DNA from: a virus
Direction: 5' to 3' (one strand)
Length of the DNA stretch: 64,000 bases
Virus record (IMG/VR): IMGVR_UViG_3300023184_008416
Location: 1-64,000 of that record
Position 1 is the stretch's first letter; each line of letters begins with the position of its first letter. The notes beneath the pieces are model-generated. The model had not been told where the DNA came from. It saw only the letters and a list, made by a program, of their open reading frames with translations, and did no database searches. Shown here piece after piece: positions 11,044-64,000 of the stretch. A program made the translations under genes and the position numbers.

Positions 11044-12897
11044 TCATTTTCTTGCATAATATTTTTCACCGTCTGATAACGTTATTGTAACAGGTTTATA
11101 TCTGTAGTGATCTTTCGAACTCGGTCCAGGATAATTTTCATAATTACCTTCAGGATGATGATGACATAAATAAATATTTTTTGTATCATTTATACCAATA
11201 ATGTCGGTTCTATTTCCTACAAAATGCATATGATCTTCATGCGACACGTATTTAAAAAACATGGGGGTTACACTACCCCATTTTAATTTTTTATACAGGG
11301 CTTGATGTTCAAAGTTCCATAACTCTCCAAAATTATGTTTGCACCATGCATTAAAAACTTTAAATATATTTTCTCCAACTAATATTCCCCCAAAGGGAGG
11401 ATTATTACCCGTAGTTAATTCCTGTACAATTATATTTTTTTGAATCAACTCTGGTATCCAATCATGAAATAACCACCGTGCCATTTCATACATGGCAGCA
11501 AAATCATGTGGTAATACCTGTCCTTCACCAATTTGTGCATCTGCGTATGCTTTTTTAAGATAATCTGGTTGTTGACCAGGAATGAGGAAGGGGATGTTGG
11601 GACTGCCATATTTATTACTGCTAGAGTTTCCACAACGATATGGTGTTTCGCCCGGTAAACCTTCTTCCATGTTTTGTGATATTAAATTATTTTCGATCCC
11701 AGACAACCACTTACCGTCTTGTTTCATTGGATATGCAGTATCAAAAGAAGCTCCTCCATGTGAGTGTGACCATTGATTATACCTCCATCCAAGACCACCT
11801 GCAGGTTCTTTTCTGGTAATATTTCCAACCTCTAATTTAAAAAATGAATTGGTGTTATCTTTTAAAGATATTGGGTTTTTTGATCCTTGAATGTTGTCTG
11901 TGAATGACATGTGTTCTGCCATTTTTTGTATTGTTTCAACCGTAAATGAATCACCATAATACGCTTTACGTTTTGTAAAATTGACAGTTAATTTTGAACC
12001 GTTATCTTGTAACCTAACCAGGTTATTAAGTGCGGCCTCTTGATCTTCTGACATTTTAGGTTCATTGTATTTAATATAACCACGATAGTTGCCTAAAATT
12101 TTTATTAAATTTGTTGCCCCTACAACTACATGTGCAGCTGAAACTGCTATGATGTCTGCTGTTACCGTTTTTATGGTAGCCAAATTTGTTTGATATTCAG
12201 CAAAATTATCTCCGGGATCAAGCAATAGATTCTTAGTAATTTCTTGGACAATTTGACATGAAGCTTTAAATAATTTTTCAGGTGTAAAGTTTAACCACCA
12301 ATTTTCCTTACCAATTACTGAAATTAATTTTGAAAAAATTTGTGGGACGGCACCAATAATAAATTTTGAATTAAACTCTTGTAAGCTAGCAAAATTTTCT
12401 TGTCCCTGTGGCGGTTTACCGGTAATTGTCGTGGGTTGAGGATTTATTAATCCAATTAAATTGCTATTAAAAGCTATAACTTCAGGCGGAGGTACCAATA
12501 ACAAATTTGCAACCACGGGTATCGGCATTGCAAAGGCACCAATCATTCCAGCTAATCCTAAATCTATTTTAGGTCTACTTAAAACGTCGGCTACTCCTGT
12601 TGGATCAAATACTTTAATTAAAAACGATCTTTGATTAATTGATCTATCCAAGGTATCTAATAATGAAGAAAACACATCATCAATCCATCTTTTATGCCAA
12701 TCAGGGTATAAATCTTTATTTGCTAAATTTGGATTATAAAAAGGATCAGGTTTAATGTTTGGAACACATTCAAAATTTAAATTTATTTTTCCTATTTGAG
12801 AAAATTGTTGATGATAATCAATGATACGCTTTCTTGCGATATCTGACACTGATCCATCAGAATTTCTGACACCAAAAGTTGTCATCACAGTTTCCAT
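11044..12897 (-). CDS. Baseplate-module protein with putative C-terminal zinc metallopeptidase motif
   Basis: I place the start at the ATG at 12897 (617 residues), 6 bp after an AAGGTG Shine-Dalgarno; a GTG at 12903 is the alternative. The first half (to about 340) is helical with a hydrophobic Ala/Pro/Val-rich segment around 115-150 and matches nothing I know. The C-terminal half holds WSHSHGGASFD (about residues 375-385) and HEDHMHF (about 552-558). Paired His/Asp motifs of this sort, with a closing HxDHxH, are the zinc ligands of LAS-type peptidoglycan peptidases (M15/M74, as in MepA). The spacing of the first motif is off by one from the classical HxxGxxxD. Lying between gp25- and gp5-like genes, it could be the cell-wall-cutting enzyme of the tail, replacing the lysozyme domain of T4 gp5. 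That function is an inference. Confidence 0.65.
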   Translation of the reverse strand: METVMTTFGVRNSDGSVSDIARKRIIDYHQQFSQIGKINLNFECVPNIKPDPFYNPNLANKDLYPDWHKRWIDDVFSSLLDTLDRSINQRSFLIKVFDPTGVADVLSRPKIDLGLAGMIGAFAMPIPVVANLLLVPPPEVIAFNSNLIGLINPQPTTITGKPPQGQENFASLQEFNSKFIIGAVPQIFSKLISVIGKENWWLNFTPEKLFKASCQIVQEITKNLLLDPGDNFAEYQTNLATIKTVTADIIAVSAAHVVVGATNLIKILGNYRGYIKYNEPKMSEDQEAALNNLVRLQDNGSKLTVNFTKRKAYYGDSFTVETIQKMAEHMSFTDNIQGSKNPISLKDNTNSFFKLEVGNITRKEPAGGLGWRYNQWSHSHGGASFDTAYPMKQDGKWLSGIENNLISQNMEEGLPGETPYRCGNSSSNKYGSPNIPFLIPGQQPDYLKKAYADAQIGEGQVLPHDFAAMYEMARWLFHDWIPELIQKNIIVQELTTGNNPPFGGILVGENIFKVFNAWCKHNFGELWNFEHQALYKKLKWGSVTPMFFKYVSHEDHMHFVGNRTDIIGINDTKNIYLCHHHPEGNYENYPGPSSKDHYRYKPVTITLSDGEKYYARK

Positions 12898-12906
12898 GAT
12901 CACACC

Positions 12907-14331
12907 TTATTTTATAGGACTAGTTGAACTAACAACTAAAATTTTACTAGCAAACATCCCTTGACCTGCAACTCCTACACCAACAGAAGAATTTGCAGTT
13001 GTACGAATGGGTTGTGAAATAACGGATCCATTATTTTGGATGGCCGGGATATCTGTGCATAGAACTGCTTTATCTGCTGTATCACCACCTAATTTTATAT
13101 ATCCCGTATCACTAGGTTTAAAAATAATATCTCCGTTGGTCTTTATAACAACTGCAGCATAACTGCCGGGCACCCCACTGTCATTATTATTAACAAGTAT
13201 TTCAACATCTTTCCTCGCAATCAATCTCAATTTATCAGTTTTAATGACAATTGCAGGATCACCATCTGCTGAATTTTCAAATGAAAATTGGCCATTAAAA
13301 CTTTCTAGATTAAAAATTGAATCTATGTTTGTTTTTTCTGAAATTCTAATTCTGCTAGAATCATTGATTGGATCTGGATCACCTTCTGATTTTTGATAAA
13401 CTTTAGGTGATTTATTTAATTCTGTATATCCTAATTCATTAATTACTGGAAGACCTCCAGTTTCTGGAGTTTTTCCTCTGCCCGCAACAATATCAATTGT
13501 TCCATATGGAAAATCACTGGTAGGCAAAGAAGGTATGTTTATATTTCCTTTATTTTCATTTTGTAAATTAACACTATTGTTTTTGAGAAATATACTGACG
13601 GGAGTAAAATTAGCTACTGGGCCTTTGCGATCGGTTCCTAAGGATATTAACGTATTATTTGAACCTTCTAAAACTATGTCTCCTGGTCTTTTTTTGTAAC
13701 GTGGAACAGAAGCTGGAACCTTTAAATTACTGGCGTTGAATTGTTGAGAATTTCCTAAAATTCCTCCTGATGATATCCCCGATATAAAAGAAAAAACATA
13801 TTCATTATTTTCTTTGCTAACAAGATCTCTATAGGCATTACTCCCATTTTTAATAAAGTTTGATCCTGGCAGTATTCTTCTAACACCTTTATCGTAGGCA
13901 GGAATCCCGTTGTTAAATTCAAACTTATCTTCTAAATCAGGATTTGAATAAGAAGGTTCATAAGACCTGGGAGGATGTGTATGATTTAAATCATCGGTGG
14001 TTAAAATTTCGGTTATTCTACAAAACCAATAACCTATGTCTTGTCTATAGTTATCTCCCTCGGACACCAAGGCCCAAACGTGTTCCCCCGGATTACAAGG
14101 TAAAGAAAGATGAGGAGGAAAAAAGGGGGCAAAAAACATAGCCTGATCAAGACCTCCTTCTCTATCTAATATTCTTCTTCCCAAGATTGTGTTTCTTGGT
14201 AAAACTAATTTTTTATTAATTTTAAATAAATCATACTTTTTTTGATAAATTTCTATTAAAGCATCAGTAACCATTGATGGATCAACAATTACATCAAGAA
14301 CGACTATTCGAGAAAAAGCCTGATCTATCAT
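12907..14331 (-). CDS. gp5-like baseplate hub / central spike protein
   Basis: A 474-residue protein with an ATG at 14331. Residues about 55-130 resemble an OB-fold hub domain: LPCNPGEHVWALVSEGDN then IGYWFCRITEIL, the PGE-x-V-W / GYW-x-x-R pattern seen in gp5-type hubs of large T4-like phages. The C-terminal part (about 335-445) is beta-repetitive: AIVIKTDKLRLIARKDVEIL, VVIKTNGDIIFKPSDTGYIKLGG in two pieces, then ADKAVLC, which matches the needle/beta-helix part of spike proteins. No lysozyme domain is present, unlike T4 gp5 (575 residues); the adjacent metallopeptidase-like gene may supply that role. Good confidence for a hub/spike role, moderate for one-to-one gp5 equivalence. Confidence 0.72.
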   Translation of the reverse strand: MIDQAFSRIVVLDVIVDPSMVTDALIEIYQKKYDLFKINKKLVLPRNTILGRRILDREGGLDQAMFFAPFFPPHLSLPCNPGEHVWALVSEGDNYRQDIGYWFCRITEILTTDDLNHTHPPRSYEPSYSNPDLEDKFEFNNGIPAYDKGVRRILPGSNFIKNGSNAYRDLVSKENNEYVFSFISGISSGGILGNSQQFNASNLKVPASVPRYKKRPGDIVLEGSNNTLISLGTDRKGPVANFTPVSIFLKNNSVNLQNENKGNINIPSLPTSDFPYGTIDIVAGRGKTPETGGLPVINELGYTELNKSPKVYQKSEGDPDPINDSSRIRISEKTNIDSIFNLESFNGQFSFENSADGDPAIVIKTDKLRLIARKDVEILVNNNDSGVPGSYAAVVIKTNGDIIFKPSDTGYIKLGGDTADKAVLCTDIPAIQNNGSVISQPIRTTANSSVGVGVAGQGMFASKILVVSSTSPIK

Positions 14332-14332
14332 A

Positions 14333-14695
14333 CTATTGTTCCTTTATCATATTAAACATATCATCAGGATCAATTGATTCGTTGCTACGATCTGCCTTGG
14401 CAATAAGTTCAGCAAGTTTTATAAGTTGATCATTGGCGCGGCTCATTCGCTCAATGAAAGTTGATAATGTTTTACCATGAATTGCGTGTTCAGTGCTCTT
14501 GCCCTTCACAATTTGACTGAGCTCAAGAAACATAGCATATGCATGTTGTCTGTCAATGATTGCATTTTCATAAATTTCTTTCCACAATCTTTTCTTTTTA
14601 TCGCTCAATGTTTCAATTTGATCCAAGAGTGTAGAGAAATCTTTTACCTTTTCATTTATTTCTCCCCATGAAACATCGGTCGTATCATTACTCAT
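14333..14695 (-). CDS. Small coiled-coil protein of unknown function
   Basis: A 120-residue, almost wholly helical and charged protein (heptad-like runs such as TLLDQIETLSDKKKRLWKEI, and a second helix around residues 85-105). There is no membrane segment, signal peptide or catalytic motif. The ATG at 14695 overlaps the end of the late sigma factor gene by 8 bp and its stop is 1 bp from the spike gene, so it is co-translated between transcription control and baseplate genes. It could be a tail assembly factor or a sigma/co-activator partner (T4 gp33 is also a small helical protein of 112 residues), but there is no motif to support gp33. Unknown. Confidence 0.7.
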   Translation of the reverse strand: MSNDTTDVSWGEINEKVKDFSTLLDQIETLSDKKKRLWKEIYENAIIDRQHAYAMFLELSQIVKGKSTEHAIHGKTLSTFIERMSRANDQLIKLAELIAKADRSNESIDPDDMFNMIKEQ

Positions 14696-15458
14696 TTTGT
14701 GCCATCCTCAATCTTTTATAATGTCTTTTTATTGTTTGCATGGCAGTCGTCAATTGCTTGGGACTTAAACCAGATAATTCTCTCATGTAAAGAAGAATGG
14801 CACTCTTGTTGAGTAAATCTATCGAATCTATGTTTTCAAAAATTGTGATGACAGAGTTTATGCAAGATAATTCATTTTCAGTTTTTAATGATGATCTAAT
14901 TTCATGTAACAACTTCACCGTTCCTTCTGCATCACCAAACATTGACACAAAAGAATCCTGTGTTGGTACAGTATTGTAGTCTTCAACAATTTTTTGATCA
15001 TTGTTGGACATCGATTCTGTGTAATCCAGACTAACACTCTTTTTAGAGTACAAACTTTTTTGTTTTGTTTTTATGATTAACCAATTTTTAGCAACAACAT
15101 TAAAATATGAAAAAGCGTTAGTTCCACGCGTTGCATCAAACTTATAAATTGTTTCAAACAAAAAATTTATACAATCGTTTTTTAGGTCATCGTAAGAATC
15201 GTACAATCCGACAAATTTGTGTATGTTAATTAGATTTTCTACTAACTTGCGAAACGCAGGTAGAATTTCTTTCATATACAAATCATCTTTTTCAATCTTG
15301 CTCGCGGCACTTTGGTAAGCTACAATGGCTGCTTGCGTTTGTTGATTGAAGTACATTCTTTCCGTTCGGGAATCGATGACTTCTGGTGAATCAGAAGACC
15401 TTCGTCGTCTACGTAATTTTATTTTTTTAGTTGTATCATTGATTTGTATTTTTTGCAT
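14688..15458 (-). CDS. gp55: gp55-like late-transcription RNA polymerase sigma factor
   Basis: A 256-residue protein, longer than T4 gp55 (185), with a basic N-terminus (KLRRRRRSS at about 14-22). Residues about 95-135 carry the sigma region 2-like core: YDDLKNDCINFLFETIYKFD, then NAFSYFNVVAKNWLIIKTKQ, which matches the FDxxxGxxAFxYFxxxxxN pattern of gp55-type sigmas. The C-terminal SGLSPKQLTTAMQTIKRHYK looks like a helical recognition or tail segment. Known role: gp55 directs host RNA polymerase to TATAAATA late promoters, with sliding clamp and gp33. Two exact TATAAATA boxes occur in this window at gene-block starts, which supports the assignment. Start ATG at 15458, overlapping the upstream membrane protein gene by 23 bp. 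Confidence 0.85.
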   Translation of the reverse strand: MQKIQINDTTKKIKLRRRRRSSDSPEVIDSRTERMYFNQQTQAAIVAYQSAASKIEKDDLYMKEILPAFRKLVENLINIHKFVGLYDSYDDLKNDCINFLFETIYKFDATRGTNAFSYFNVVAKNWLIIKTKQKSLYSKKSVSLDYTESMSNNDQKIVEDYNTVPTQDSFVSMFGDAEGTVKLLHEIRSSLKTENELSCINSVITIFENIDSIDLLNKSAILLYMRELSGLSPKQLTTAMQTIKRHYKRLRMAQNE

Positions 15459-15741: not shown

Positions 15742-16907
15742 AAATATTCTCCTATTTCATTATCCAGGTAACCATTGATTGCTTCTTGAGAATATTCCTG
15801 AATCAATCGAGGAGCCAGTTCACCGGCCCAACCAAGAGGAACGGATTGGGATTCAATGAATTTTTTTGCTTTTCTTTTGAAATCTTCTTCAGAAGGTGTT
15901 GCCCACTTTGCTCCTTGAACAAAAATTTTACCATCAACCCGACTGGGATGAATTTCTTCCAATTTATGATCAATAGAAATAAATTTACCTTTATTCAAGA
16001 AATCAAGATGTCCAGACCATCCCGTTGCAATTACTGGTAATCCGGCTACTGCTGCTTCCAATAATGGTAAACCATAACCTTCTCCGCGAGTAAGTGAAAC
16101 CAAGGCTTTGATTTTAGGATGTCTATATAATGAGTTCATTTCCTCGTCAGACATTGAACCGTGCAAGAGATGGATTTTAGGAAATTGTTTGTTTCCTCTG
16201 ACCTCTTTTAAGAGTTGATCAACTAAATTCGTGACAGCTTTTTTATCAATAGTTGTATTACGACCAATGTTTGTTTTTAATACAATTCCTACATCACTGC
16301 GATCAGCAAAGGTTTCACAAATCCATTTTATTGCAAAAAACGTATTTTTTCTGTCAGAGAACGGATTATTTCCCGTTATTTGAGCAACAATAAGAAAATT
16401 ATTTTCAGCTTTTAAAGATAAATTAAAAGGGGTAACGTTCAATGAATTTTTTAACGCTTCAGGATAAGCTTCAGGAACTACGGAAATTTTTGTTTTTGTT
16501 TGCCCCGTTTGCTCAAAAGTTCTTTTTGAAAATTGAGAAGGAACAACAACGTGTGTCATAGCGTCACAGCATTTTAACCAATCAGGATTACATACATTGG
16601 TTTCTACACCTGCAGTTAATCCGATATTTAATTTCCCAAGATTTGGATTCCATTCATTAGGAAGTTGTAATTGAAGTGTCACATCTGCATCCGACACAGA
16701 ATTATTTGGAACTGTTTTTTCCATTATTTGACCGATCAGACCATCACATGAATCTCTGTTTAATAACCAAGGTGTATCACCCCACATGACTGGTGAGATT
16801 TTTAAATCTATGTTTTTCTTGGTCAATAACCATTTTGTTATTTGACGAGCGTGGACGCCGTATCCTGACTGCGTCAATACAGGTGCAACAAATACAACTG
16901 ATTTCAT
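15735..16907 (-). CDS. Glycosyltransferase family 4 (group 1)
   Basis: A 390-residue GT-B fold enzyme. The donor-site signature is clear: LVSLTRGEGYGLPLLEAAVA followed by GLPVIATGWSGHLDFL, the EGxGLPxLEA motif of retaining GT4 transferases. The N-terminus begins MKSVVFVAPVLTQSGYGVHA, the glycine-rich acceptor-side loop. The substrate cannot be read from the sequence. The ATG at 16907 has a GAGGTGGTG Shine-Dalgarno and overlaps the next transferase upstream by 4 bp. It is the last (most promoter-distal) glycan gene before the sigma factor. Confident for family, unknown for sugar. Confidence 0.9.
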   Translation of the reverse strand: MKSVVFVAPVLTQSGYGVHARQITKWLLTKKNIDLKISPVMWGDTPWLLNRDSCDGLIGQIMEKTVPNNSVSDADVTLQLQLPNEWNPNLGKLNIGLTAGVETNVCNPDWLKCCDAMTHVVVPSQFSKRTFEQTGQTKTKISVVPEAYPEALKNSLNVTPFNLSLKAENNFLIVAQITGNNPFSDRKNTFFAIKWICETFADRSDVGIVLKTNIGRNTTIDKKAVTNLVDQLLKEVRGNKQFPKIHLLHGSMSDEEMNSLYRHPKIKALVSLTRGEGYGLPLLEAAVAGLPVIATGWSGHLDFLNKGKFISIDHKLEEIHPSRVDGKIFVQGAKWATPSEEDFKRKAKKFIESQSVPLGWAGELAPRLIQEYSQEAINGYLDNEIGEYLC

Positions 16908-62143: not shown

Positions 62144-64000
62144 ATGGCAAATAAAGAATCACAAGAAAGCCTCTTTAAAAGATTAACTCGCCTCTTTCGT
62201 AGCGGACCGGTAGTAAAACGAAAGATCAGAACCGCTGATACGACCATCGCCGTTCCTGACAGGACAAAATCTTCTGGGGCTTTGCTTTTTCAAAAGAGTT
62301 TGTCACCTACATACGCAACTATCACTTCAAACGCTTATAACCTCTCAGAGCGCCTGATGAGGTACCAAGATTTTCAAGAAATGGAATATTCACTGGCAAT
62401 TTCTACAAAAATTGCTACGCCTGATGGATTCAAAACTATCGGTGAGTTGACGGAAGAGTGCGAAAAAGATCCGAACAAGACCTTCGTCGTTTATTCTTAC
62501 GACCATGTACAGAAAAAAATAGTACCCGCTTTAGGTAAACAAGCTCGTCAGACTTGCGTTGACCATGCGTGGAAAGTCAAATTTGATAACGGCAAGGAAA
62601 TAATTGCCAGCCCAGAGCATCGTTTGATGTTGCGAGATGGCACCTACAGGAAGGTTGAGGATTTGCAGCCTGGGGATTCCATGATGCCCTTCTATCGCAA
62701 GGATCTTTTTGAAGGTGCCAAGGAAGGTACCAGGGGATATTCTTGGATTTATACGATGGACGATAGGTTCCGTGGATGGACCAAAGAGCACCAGATGGTT
62801 GCCGAGTGGATTGCGGGTAGAAATTTGGCAGAAGATGAAGTGGTTCATCACATTAATTTTGTGAAGACCGACAATCGACCAGAAAATCTAAAAATTATGT
62901 CGAAGTCGGATCACGATTCTTATCACACAGCCTTAAATAATAATGTAAAATGGTCGCCTGAAAATGGGGAATGGATAGAAGACTTTAAAAAACGTCATTC
63001 CGCATGGATGCGTGACAATGCCCCAACCGCCCGCACCGACGTTACATTTTCTAGGATACTGGAAGTGGCCGAGCGCGTCGGTTTTAGCATGCCTGCGATT
63101 GCGTCGACCTTGGATGTGACCTGGAATTTGATATATTCCCGGCTGACAGCACATGGATTTGCCAATTTTGAGCAATTTGTCGAAGCTTATCGCGATGGAC
63201 AAAAAGATTCTCTGATCGATGGTCGTCCTGGATTGTTGACAAGAGACTTGACGTTAGATATGATACGTTCTGTAGTTCTTCCCGAGGACACAAAGCGATC
63301 TTTGGCCATTAAATTAGGTTGTACCACCAATGTGCTGGATAAATTTTTAGCAAAAAGAGAACGAATGACCTGGACACAGCTGAGGTCTTCTTTGGGATAC
63401 AATGATCAAGGAAGCACTGGCTTTCCAAACTTGCTCCGCCGTGGTGGAAGGCCTAAGGAAAAGAATAATCACGAAATAACATTTCAGCAAATATGTGACG
63501 CTTATCTACCCGGCCGAACTCTCCCCAGATTGGCTTCTTCTTTAGGTGTTAACAAGAACACTGTCATTTCTCGATTGGCGCAACAAGGTCACAAGAGGTA
63601 CAGCGATTTTGCTTCGGCTTATCAAAACTGTAAAGTGGAATCCATAGAATACATGGGAGTTATTCCGCTCTACGACTTAACCGTCGATGGATATAAGAAT
63701 TTTGCGACCGATTCAGTAATGTCTCATAACACACCGGAGTTGGCAGCTGCAATGGACATCTATGCAGATGAAACGGTCGCCTCTGATGAAAAGGGAAAGG
63801 TACTCCACGTTTACTCAGATAACCCTAAAATAAAACAGATTTTAGATGACCTATTTTATAATACCCTAAACGTTGAATTTAATTTGAGGTCATGGGCAAG
63901 GAATCTTTGTAAGTTTGGTGATTTCTTTTTATACAATGATGTGTCACCACAGCATGGCGTTATTAATGCTTTCCCCATCCCAGTCAATGAAATTGAACGT
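62144..64000 (+). CDS. gp20: Portal protein precursor (gp20-like) interrupted by an intein (partial at right edge)
   Basis: The frame runs from the ATG at 62144 to the window end (619 codons, no stop). Residues 1-82 (from MANKESQESLFKRL to RLMRYQDFQEMEY) are the N-extein. After a 447-residue intein (83-529) the portal continues TPELAAAMDIYADETVASD, then the helical clip and stem region IKQILDDLFYNTLNVEFNLR and FGDFFLYNDV. Joined, the exteins read RYQDFQEMEY-TPELAAAMDI, the conserved helix of gp20-type portals. Known role: dodecameric ring at the head vertex, docking the terminase encoded upstream. T4 gp20 is 524 residues, so about half of the mature protein is out of the window. Confidence 0.9.
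   Translation, partial: MANKESQESLFKRLTRLFRSGPVVKRKIRTADTTIAVPDRTKSSGALLFQKSLSPTYATITSNAYNLSERLMRYQDFQEMEYSLAISTKIATPDGFKTIGELTEECEKDPNKTFVVYSYDHVQKKIVPALGKQARQTCVDHAWKVKFDNGKEIIASPEHRLMLRDGTYRKVEDLQPGDSMMPFYRKDLFEGAKEGTRGYSWIYTMDDRFRGWTKEHQMVAEWIAGRNLAEDEVVHHINFVKTDNRPENLKIMSKSDHDSYHTALNNNVKWSPENGEWIEDFKKRHSAWMRDNAPTARTDVTFSRILEVAERVGFSMPAIASTLDVTWNLIYSRLTAHGFANFEQFVEAYRDGQKDSLIDGRPGLLTRDLTLDMIRSVVLPEDTKRSLAIKLGCTTNVLDKFLAKRERMTWTQLRSSLGYNDQGSTGFPNLLRRGGRPKEKNNHEITFQQICDAYLPGRTLPRLASSLGVNKNTVISRLAQQGHKRYSDFASAYQNCKVESIEYMGVIPLYDLTVDGYKNFATDSVMSHNTPELAAAMDIYADETVASDEKGKVLHVYSDNPKIKQILDDLFYNTLNVEFNLRSWARNLCKFGDFFLYNDVSPQHGVINAFPIPVNEIER
62390..63730 (+). mobile_element. Intein with HNH-type homing endonuclease motif in the portal gene
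   Basis: 447 residues. It begins SLAISTKIATPDGFKTIGEL (block A with Ser at position 1 instead of the usual Cys), then ASPEHRLMLRDGTYRKVEDL (block B, His of the N-splicing site), an HNH-like nuclease segment VVHHINFVKTDNRPENL (about intein residues 150-166), three helix-turn-helix-like repeats (e.g. LASSLGVNKNTVISRLAQQG) and the C-terminal block IPLYDLTVDGYKNF then SVMSHN, followed by Thr as the +1 residue. Ser1, His-Asn at the end and Thr+1 are compatible with class 1 splicing. The base composition is visibly more GC-rich than the flanking portal, a sign of lateral transfer. Confidence 0.88.

Follow-up and report, generated by a model that had tools for sequence, protein, structure and literature searches.

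A Ser1 HNH homing intein, probably a recent arrival, in the portal gene of an uncultured T4-like phage

Introduction

What is the 447-residue insert that separates EMEY from TPEL in the portal protein of an uncultured phage, and how did it come to be there? The insert lies near the end of a 64,000-nt stretch of DNA (hereafter, the window), which is part of a virus record of 161,915 bp (IMGVR_UViG_3300023184_008416). A sequence-only reading of the window had proposed a portal intein with an unusual first residue, an HNH nuclease and three helix-turn-helix (HTH)-like repeats, GC-rich relative to its host and hard to lose. Here, we describe the element, its empty and occupied alleles, and the evidence for its recent movement.

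Results

A complete intein in a T4-type portal gene

The interrupted ORF opens at position 62144 and runs beyond the window end to genome position 65521, encoding 1125 aa. Its C-extein alone matches Portal_T4 (PF07230) with E = 1.9e-72, and the large terminase gene lies immediately upstream, as in a T4-type portal locus; the host is an uncultured T4-like phage and the interrupted gene encodes a T4-gp20-like portal. The insert begins with Ser1 at precursor residue 83 (62390) and ends with Asn447 at residue 529 (63730), followed by Thr+1, exactly where the sequence-only reading had placed a complete intein with these residues (Table 1). It matches Pfam Intein_splicing (PF14890, E = 8.4e-15), TIGR01445 for the intein N-terminus (E = 5.8e-9) and TIGR01443 for the intein C-terminus (above its cut-off). 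A match to Pfam HNH_3 (PF13392, E = 3.6e-7, above cut-off) with an intact core agrees with the earlier assignment to HNH rather than LAGLIDADG nucleases.

The insertion is in frame and its junctions are exact against intein-free homologues. Together with Ser1, Asn447 and Thr+1, block B His77 and penultimate His446 make up the residues of a class 1 intein. Block F contains Asp429 and Lys-Asn-Phe, and the C-terminal end is Ser-His-Asn. One residue counts against this assignment: block F has Lys436 where the Ssp and Npu DnaB inteins carry His or Arg. No second intein was detected in the 162-kb record.

Table 1. Features of the interrupted portal gene (window positions)
Feature	Position	Strand	Basis
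N-extein of portal, 82 aa, ends QDFQEMEY	62144-62389	+	ORF, junction; 62-82% identical intein-free portals
5' co-conversion tract, 60 nt identical to L085/L086, 59/60 to empty L029	62330-62389	+	DNA comparison
Whole intein, 447 aa, Ser1 to Asn447	62390-63730	+	PF14890, TIGR01445, TIGR01443; junctions from intein-free alleles
N-terminal HINT splicing part, residues 1-104, block A Ser1	62390-62701	+	Profile matches, model, Foldseek
Block B Ser74-Pro-Glu-His77	62609-62620	+	Inside N-terminal HINT part
Homing endonuclease insert, residues 105-412	62702-63625	+	Profile match, alignment, model, omega
HNH_3 nuclease core	62789-62914	+	PF13392 above cut-off; invariant residues
HNH motif VVHHINFVKTDNRPENL, residues 150-167	62837-62890	+	Within HNH_3 core
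HTH-like unit 1, residues 214-278	63029-63223	+	hhalign with unit 3, 98%; helices 220-268 (model)
HTH-like unit 2, residues 283-345	63236-63424	+	hhalign with unit 3, 95%; helices 289-334 (model)
HTH-like unit 3, residues 356-412	63455-63625	+	hhalign, model
C-terminal splicing part, residues 413-447: block F YDLTV...KNF, block G SHN, Asn447	63626-63730	+	TIGR01443, model
C-extein of portal, Thr+1, TPEL..., on to genome position 65521	63731-64000	+	PF07230, E 1.9e-72
3' end of shared tract, 9 nt ACACCGGAG	63731-63739	+	DNA comparison

Splicing domain, nuclease and HTH-like units

We built an AlphaFold2 model of the intein from 25 portal inteins (mean pLDDT 81, pTM 0.58). The HINT fold is formed by strands at residues 1-104 and 413-447, and a Foldseek search with the model retrieved solved inteins with a probability of 1.00. 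Between the two HINT parts, the model has an HNH core of strands and a helix (~150-187), together with three units made of helices. All 25 aligned portal inteins retain His153, His154, Asn162, Asn166, His175 and His179, and omega against the inteins of contigs L085 and L086 is ~0.17-0.20 in the endonuclease insert and ~0.10 across the intein; judged by its codons, the endonuclease is under purifying selection. The three repeats noticed at first sight are substantiated by the modeled helices and by hhalign, which links HTH1 to HTH3 (98%) and HTH2 to HTH3 (95%), the HTH1-HTH2 comparison alone not being significant. By profile comparison, units 1 and 3 are duplicates and unit 2 is related to unit 3.

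These features suggest the following pathway. The portal precursor would be translated as one chain in which the HINT domain folds. As the conserved residues imply, Ser1 would attack the Tyr-Ser1 peptide bond, the ester would pass to Thr+1, and cyclization of Asn447 would free the joined portal, EMEY-TPEL; from their conservation in an essential gene we infer that the Ser1 inteins splice. The excised 447-aa protein would be an HNH homing endonuclease whose core cuts or nicks the empty site, while the HTH-like units probably read the portal DNA around it. Upon co-infection, repair of the broken empty allele from the intein-bearing one would copy the intein together with a short flank.

The site is often empty

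Intein-free relatives, proposed earlier as a check, are abundant: portals uninterrupted at this site occur in ~80 viral contigs (roughly 50-82% identical), and EMEYTPE is continuous in nearly all of them, the exception being L065, where a different intein interrupts the portal five residues upstream. A second scan was queried with the first 77 extein residues only and is thus unbiased for or against an intein. Among contigs with a readable site, 24 of 76 are occupied and 52 are empty; two of the empty-site portals hold a different intein five residues upstream. The occupied sites comprise 12 Ser1 and 12 Cys1 inteins, one of each cut by the contig end. On a tree of 66 portals, occupancy requires ~17 gains or losses, which is not below the value for shuffled labels (mean 18.0), and the well-supported branches alone force at least nine changes. 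The element is thus frequently absent, which lends no support to the initial expectation that it is hard to lose.

The same reading had put the insertion inside a helix. The position between EMEY and TPEL stands, but in a model of an intein-free relative the site falls in a turn between helices 65-80 and 83-96, a prediction of low-to-moderate confidence (mean pLDDT 59.6, ~71 near the site) that speaks against a location within a helix.

The intein at the upstream position (L065:2960-3997; also in L119, L120 and L225) belongs to a different HNH family with Cys1/Cys+1. It sits between QDF and EMEY and is 31-33% identical to the window intein.

Near-identical inteins in diverged portals

The inteins of L085 and L086 are 97.5% identical in DNA to the window intein (33 differences; dS 0.09, dN 0.009, omega 0.10), whereas the portal exteins share ~79% protein identity with the window portal and synonymous sites in the flanking extein are saturated. 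The match continues outside the intein for exactly 60 nt on the upstream side and 9 nt on the downstream side, after which identity drops to that seen elsewhere in the gene. In 582 other portal pairs of like divergence, these 60 nt are on average 78.5% identical and perfect in no pair, the next highest value (0.983) being window versus L029, which argues against chance conservation of the tract.

Contig L029 carries an empty allele. It is 98.7% identical to carrier L085 across 300 nt downstream of the site and ~86% identical further upstream. Because this empty allele retains 59/60 positions of the tract, the DNA comparison indicates that the tract belongs originally to the L085/L029 lineage and that the transfer most likely ran from there into the lineage of the window. 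GC3 of the intein (0.44) resembles that of donor-lineage portals (0.43-0.48), the window portal having 0.32. The GC-rich contrast noted earlier is present but modest (intein 44.1%, exteins 41.1%; GC3 43.6% vs 32.4%) and fits the L085/L029 lineage. In the portal tree the window groups with L178 (100/98), whereas in the intein tree its partners are L085/L086 (98/94); a portal tree constrained to unite the window with L085 is rejected (AU p = 2.6e-5). No relative of the intein was found in a genome-contig scan for a cellular origin.

Tree conflict, near-identical copies, the tract and the empty donor-lineage allele all point to mobility into empty alleles. Combined with the splicing and nuclease features, these comparisons make it very probable that the insert is a full-length class 1 homing intein whose window copy arrived recently from the L085/L086/L029 lineage. 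Homing has nearly been caught in the act here, in uncultured phages, with donor lineage, empty donor-lineage allele and recipient all represented. The 60 + 9 nt footprint probably brackets the cut site. Flank identity is also higher among carrier pairs than among empty pairs (upstream 30 nt, 0.833 vs 0.779), which is only suggestive because the pairs share history. A similar pattern of near-identical inteins in diverged exteins was read as recent local invasion in actinophage methylases (PMC9957025); those inteins carry a LAGLIDADG nuclease in a DNA methylase, whereas the present case involves HNH, a portal, a mapped tract and an empty donor-lineage allele.

The short tract marks where the exchange ended, not which enzyme began it; while the transfer can be read from the DNA, the enzyme's own role in it is something we infer. 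Phages recombine freely, and plain homologous exchange can also leave short tracts, so an intein that splices but has an inactive nuclease could simply have been carried along when co-infecting phages underwent ordinary recombination. We consider this unlikely, given HNH residues invariant in 25 inteins, the low omega of the endonuclease (0.17-0.20), and a tract of just 60 + 9 nt at one exact site whose occupancy flips ~17 times on the tree.

The insert could instead be a permanent extra portal domain that does not splice. This is very improbable: both junctions fit the intein-free protein exactly, the catalytic residues are kept while extein and insert come and go, and very similar phages are entirely without the insert. 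We give equally little credence to an assembly chimera, in which the assembler joined another phage's intein into this portal at a 5' boundary within DNA possibly common to two phages. With 33 differences from each of L085 and L086, the window copy is neither of these two sequences; moreover, both junctions are in frame, inteins occupy the same site in 24 independent contigs, and a scan for the exact junction outside the window returned L085 and L086 only. Residence since the common ancestor with L178, whose sister portal also has a Ser1 intein, is hardly credible, being already contradicted by the intein tree, where the L178 intein is far from that of the window, and by an intein dS of 0.09 against saturation in the extein. 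With recent homing as the preferred reading, the incoming copy may have replaced an earlier Ser1 intein of the window lineage.

Two further observations concern intein history. A run of six consecutive codons at 62524-62539 (intein nt 134-149, zero-based) shows only third-position differences from L085 and L086 alike, a pattern resembling a short patch converted from a different intein allele. In inteins at this site in L102, L103, L178 and others, intein GC3 tracks host portal GC3 from 0.29 to 0.88; this suggests long residence there, unlike the window copy.

Ser1 and Cys1 inteins share one codon

In the unrooted intein tree, a single branch (100/100) separates the Ser1 inteins (439-449 aa) from the Cys1 inteins (376-378 aa) of this codon. 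The Cys1 form is without ~70 aa, including HTH-like unit 2, and the two sets have no residue in common at 14 splicing-domain positions (1, 3, 10, 12, 56, 61, 73, 74, 76, 81, 89, 104, 414 and 422). The Cys1 inteins of L188, L189 and L250, all from uncultured phages, are ~50-55% identical to the window intein and share its HNH domain, HTH units 1 and 3 and Asn/Thr+1 end; they differ from it in Cys1, the shorter length, the missing unit and the separating positions.

Ser1 is indeed a minority first residue, yet an established one: 58 Ser1 inteins with Ser+1 or Thr+1 have been counted (Pasch et al., PMC10189870), and the oddity lies elsewhere. According to the same study, a critical 'NX' histidine preceded by Arg/Lys is common to Ser1/Ser+1(Thr+1) inteins and missing from Cys1 inteins, and C1S mutants of several Cys1 inteins are inactive. 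All 11 distinct Ser1 members at the portal site have Ser or Thr at +1. However, 22-23 residues ahead of the block B His, where an NX histidine following Arg/Lys would be expected, the Ser1 clade has none; Arg53-Gln54 occupies this place in the window intein, in all Ser1 members and in nearly all Cys1 members. The register was taken from PI-PkoII (2cw7: R72-H73, block B H96) by sequence alignment, not structure superposition. His59 was considered as a stand-in and discarded as unconserved (Ser59 in L093).

The window intein resembles PolB16 OarG, PI-PkoII/Tko Pol-2, Psp Pol-1 and Aes123 PolB1 (PMC10189870) in the block B His and in combining Ser1 with Thr/Ser+1, and would therefore use the oxyester chemistry of that class. 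Unlike the class, it is not cysteine-free (Cys24, Cys56) and has Arg53-Gln54 in place of the NX histidine, so that, as aligned, it departs from the reported need of Ser1/Thr+1 inteins. Having orthologous inteins of both types at a single codon offers a direct test of what permits a change of first nucleophile. We see an even chance for a broader proposal: that one intein lineage, while circulating at a single codon, changed its first nucleophile from Cys to Ser or the reverse through few active-site changes (candidates 56, 61, 73, 74 and 76) and with no NX histidine, and that the portal gene of large T4-like phages is a major hotspot for inteins.

Other inteins in portals and other phage genes

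The fetched portal ORFs contain 18 candidate insertion positions, or ~14 once neighbors within two residues are merged; the junctions come from an automated search and were hand-checked in part. Candidates cluster near residues 72-98, 218-238, 295-306 and 353-359 (spliced window portal numbering). Several portals contain two or more inteins, and a huge-phage portal (LR756508) contains three. Few phage genes may be as heavily invaded by inteins as the portal of this clade, and the ~14 candidate sites also bear on portal annotation in metagenomes. We found no description of this insertion site or of a portal hotspot in the literature searched, which left preprints and most subscription journals outside.

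Mycobacteriophage cluster C1 inteins (PMC5050341) also interrupt a phage portal, likened here by description and belonging to another portal family and phage group. Haloarchaeal MCM inteins a-d (PMC10643990) likewise occupy several close sites in one essential gene with signs of flank co-conversion, at four sites in a helicase as against ~14 candidate sites in the phage portal.

The three inteins of LR756508.1, a 484-kb uncultured phage (ORF from 2989), lie at other portal sites; two of them (~141-150 aa) lack a nuclease, and the third (458 aa) has an HNH domain. Related HNH inteins occur in other phage genes (L089-L092): ribonucleotide reductase (LR756501), RcKickapoo DNA polymerase, SP-15 gene SP15_022 (annotated hypothetical) and CL131 dCTP deaminase.

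Neighboring genes

Behind the major capsid gene of the phage, segment L002 contains three likely free-standing endonuclease genes (genome 72786-76171), which encode a TnsA-like nuclease, a protein carrying a weak NUMOD3 motif and a small HNH protein (L002 positions 12787-13647, 13703-15133 and 15798-16172). The probable major capsid gene itself (L002:10781-12682, genome 70780-72681) has a GC content of 55% and a GC3 of 63%, much higher than its neighbors (~38-41%), and was possibly acquired from a GC-richer phage.
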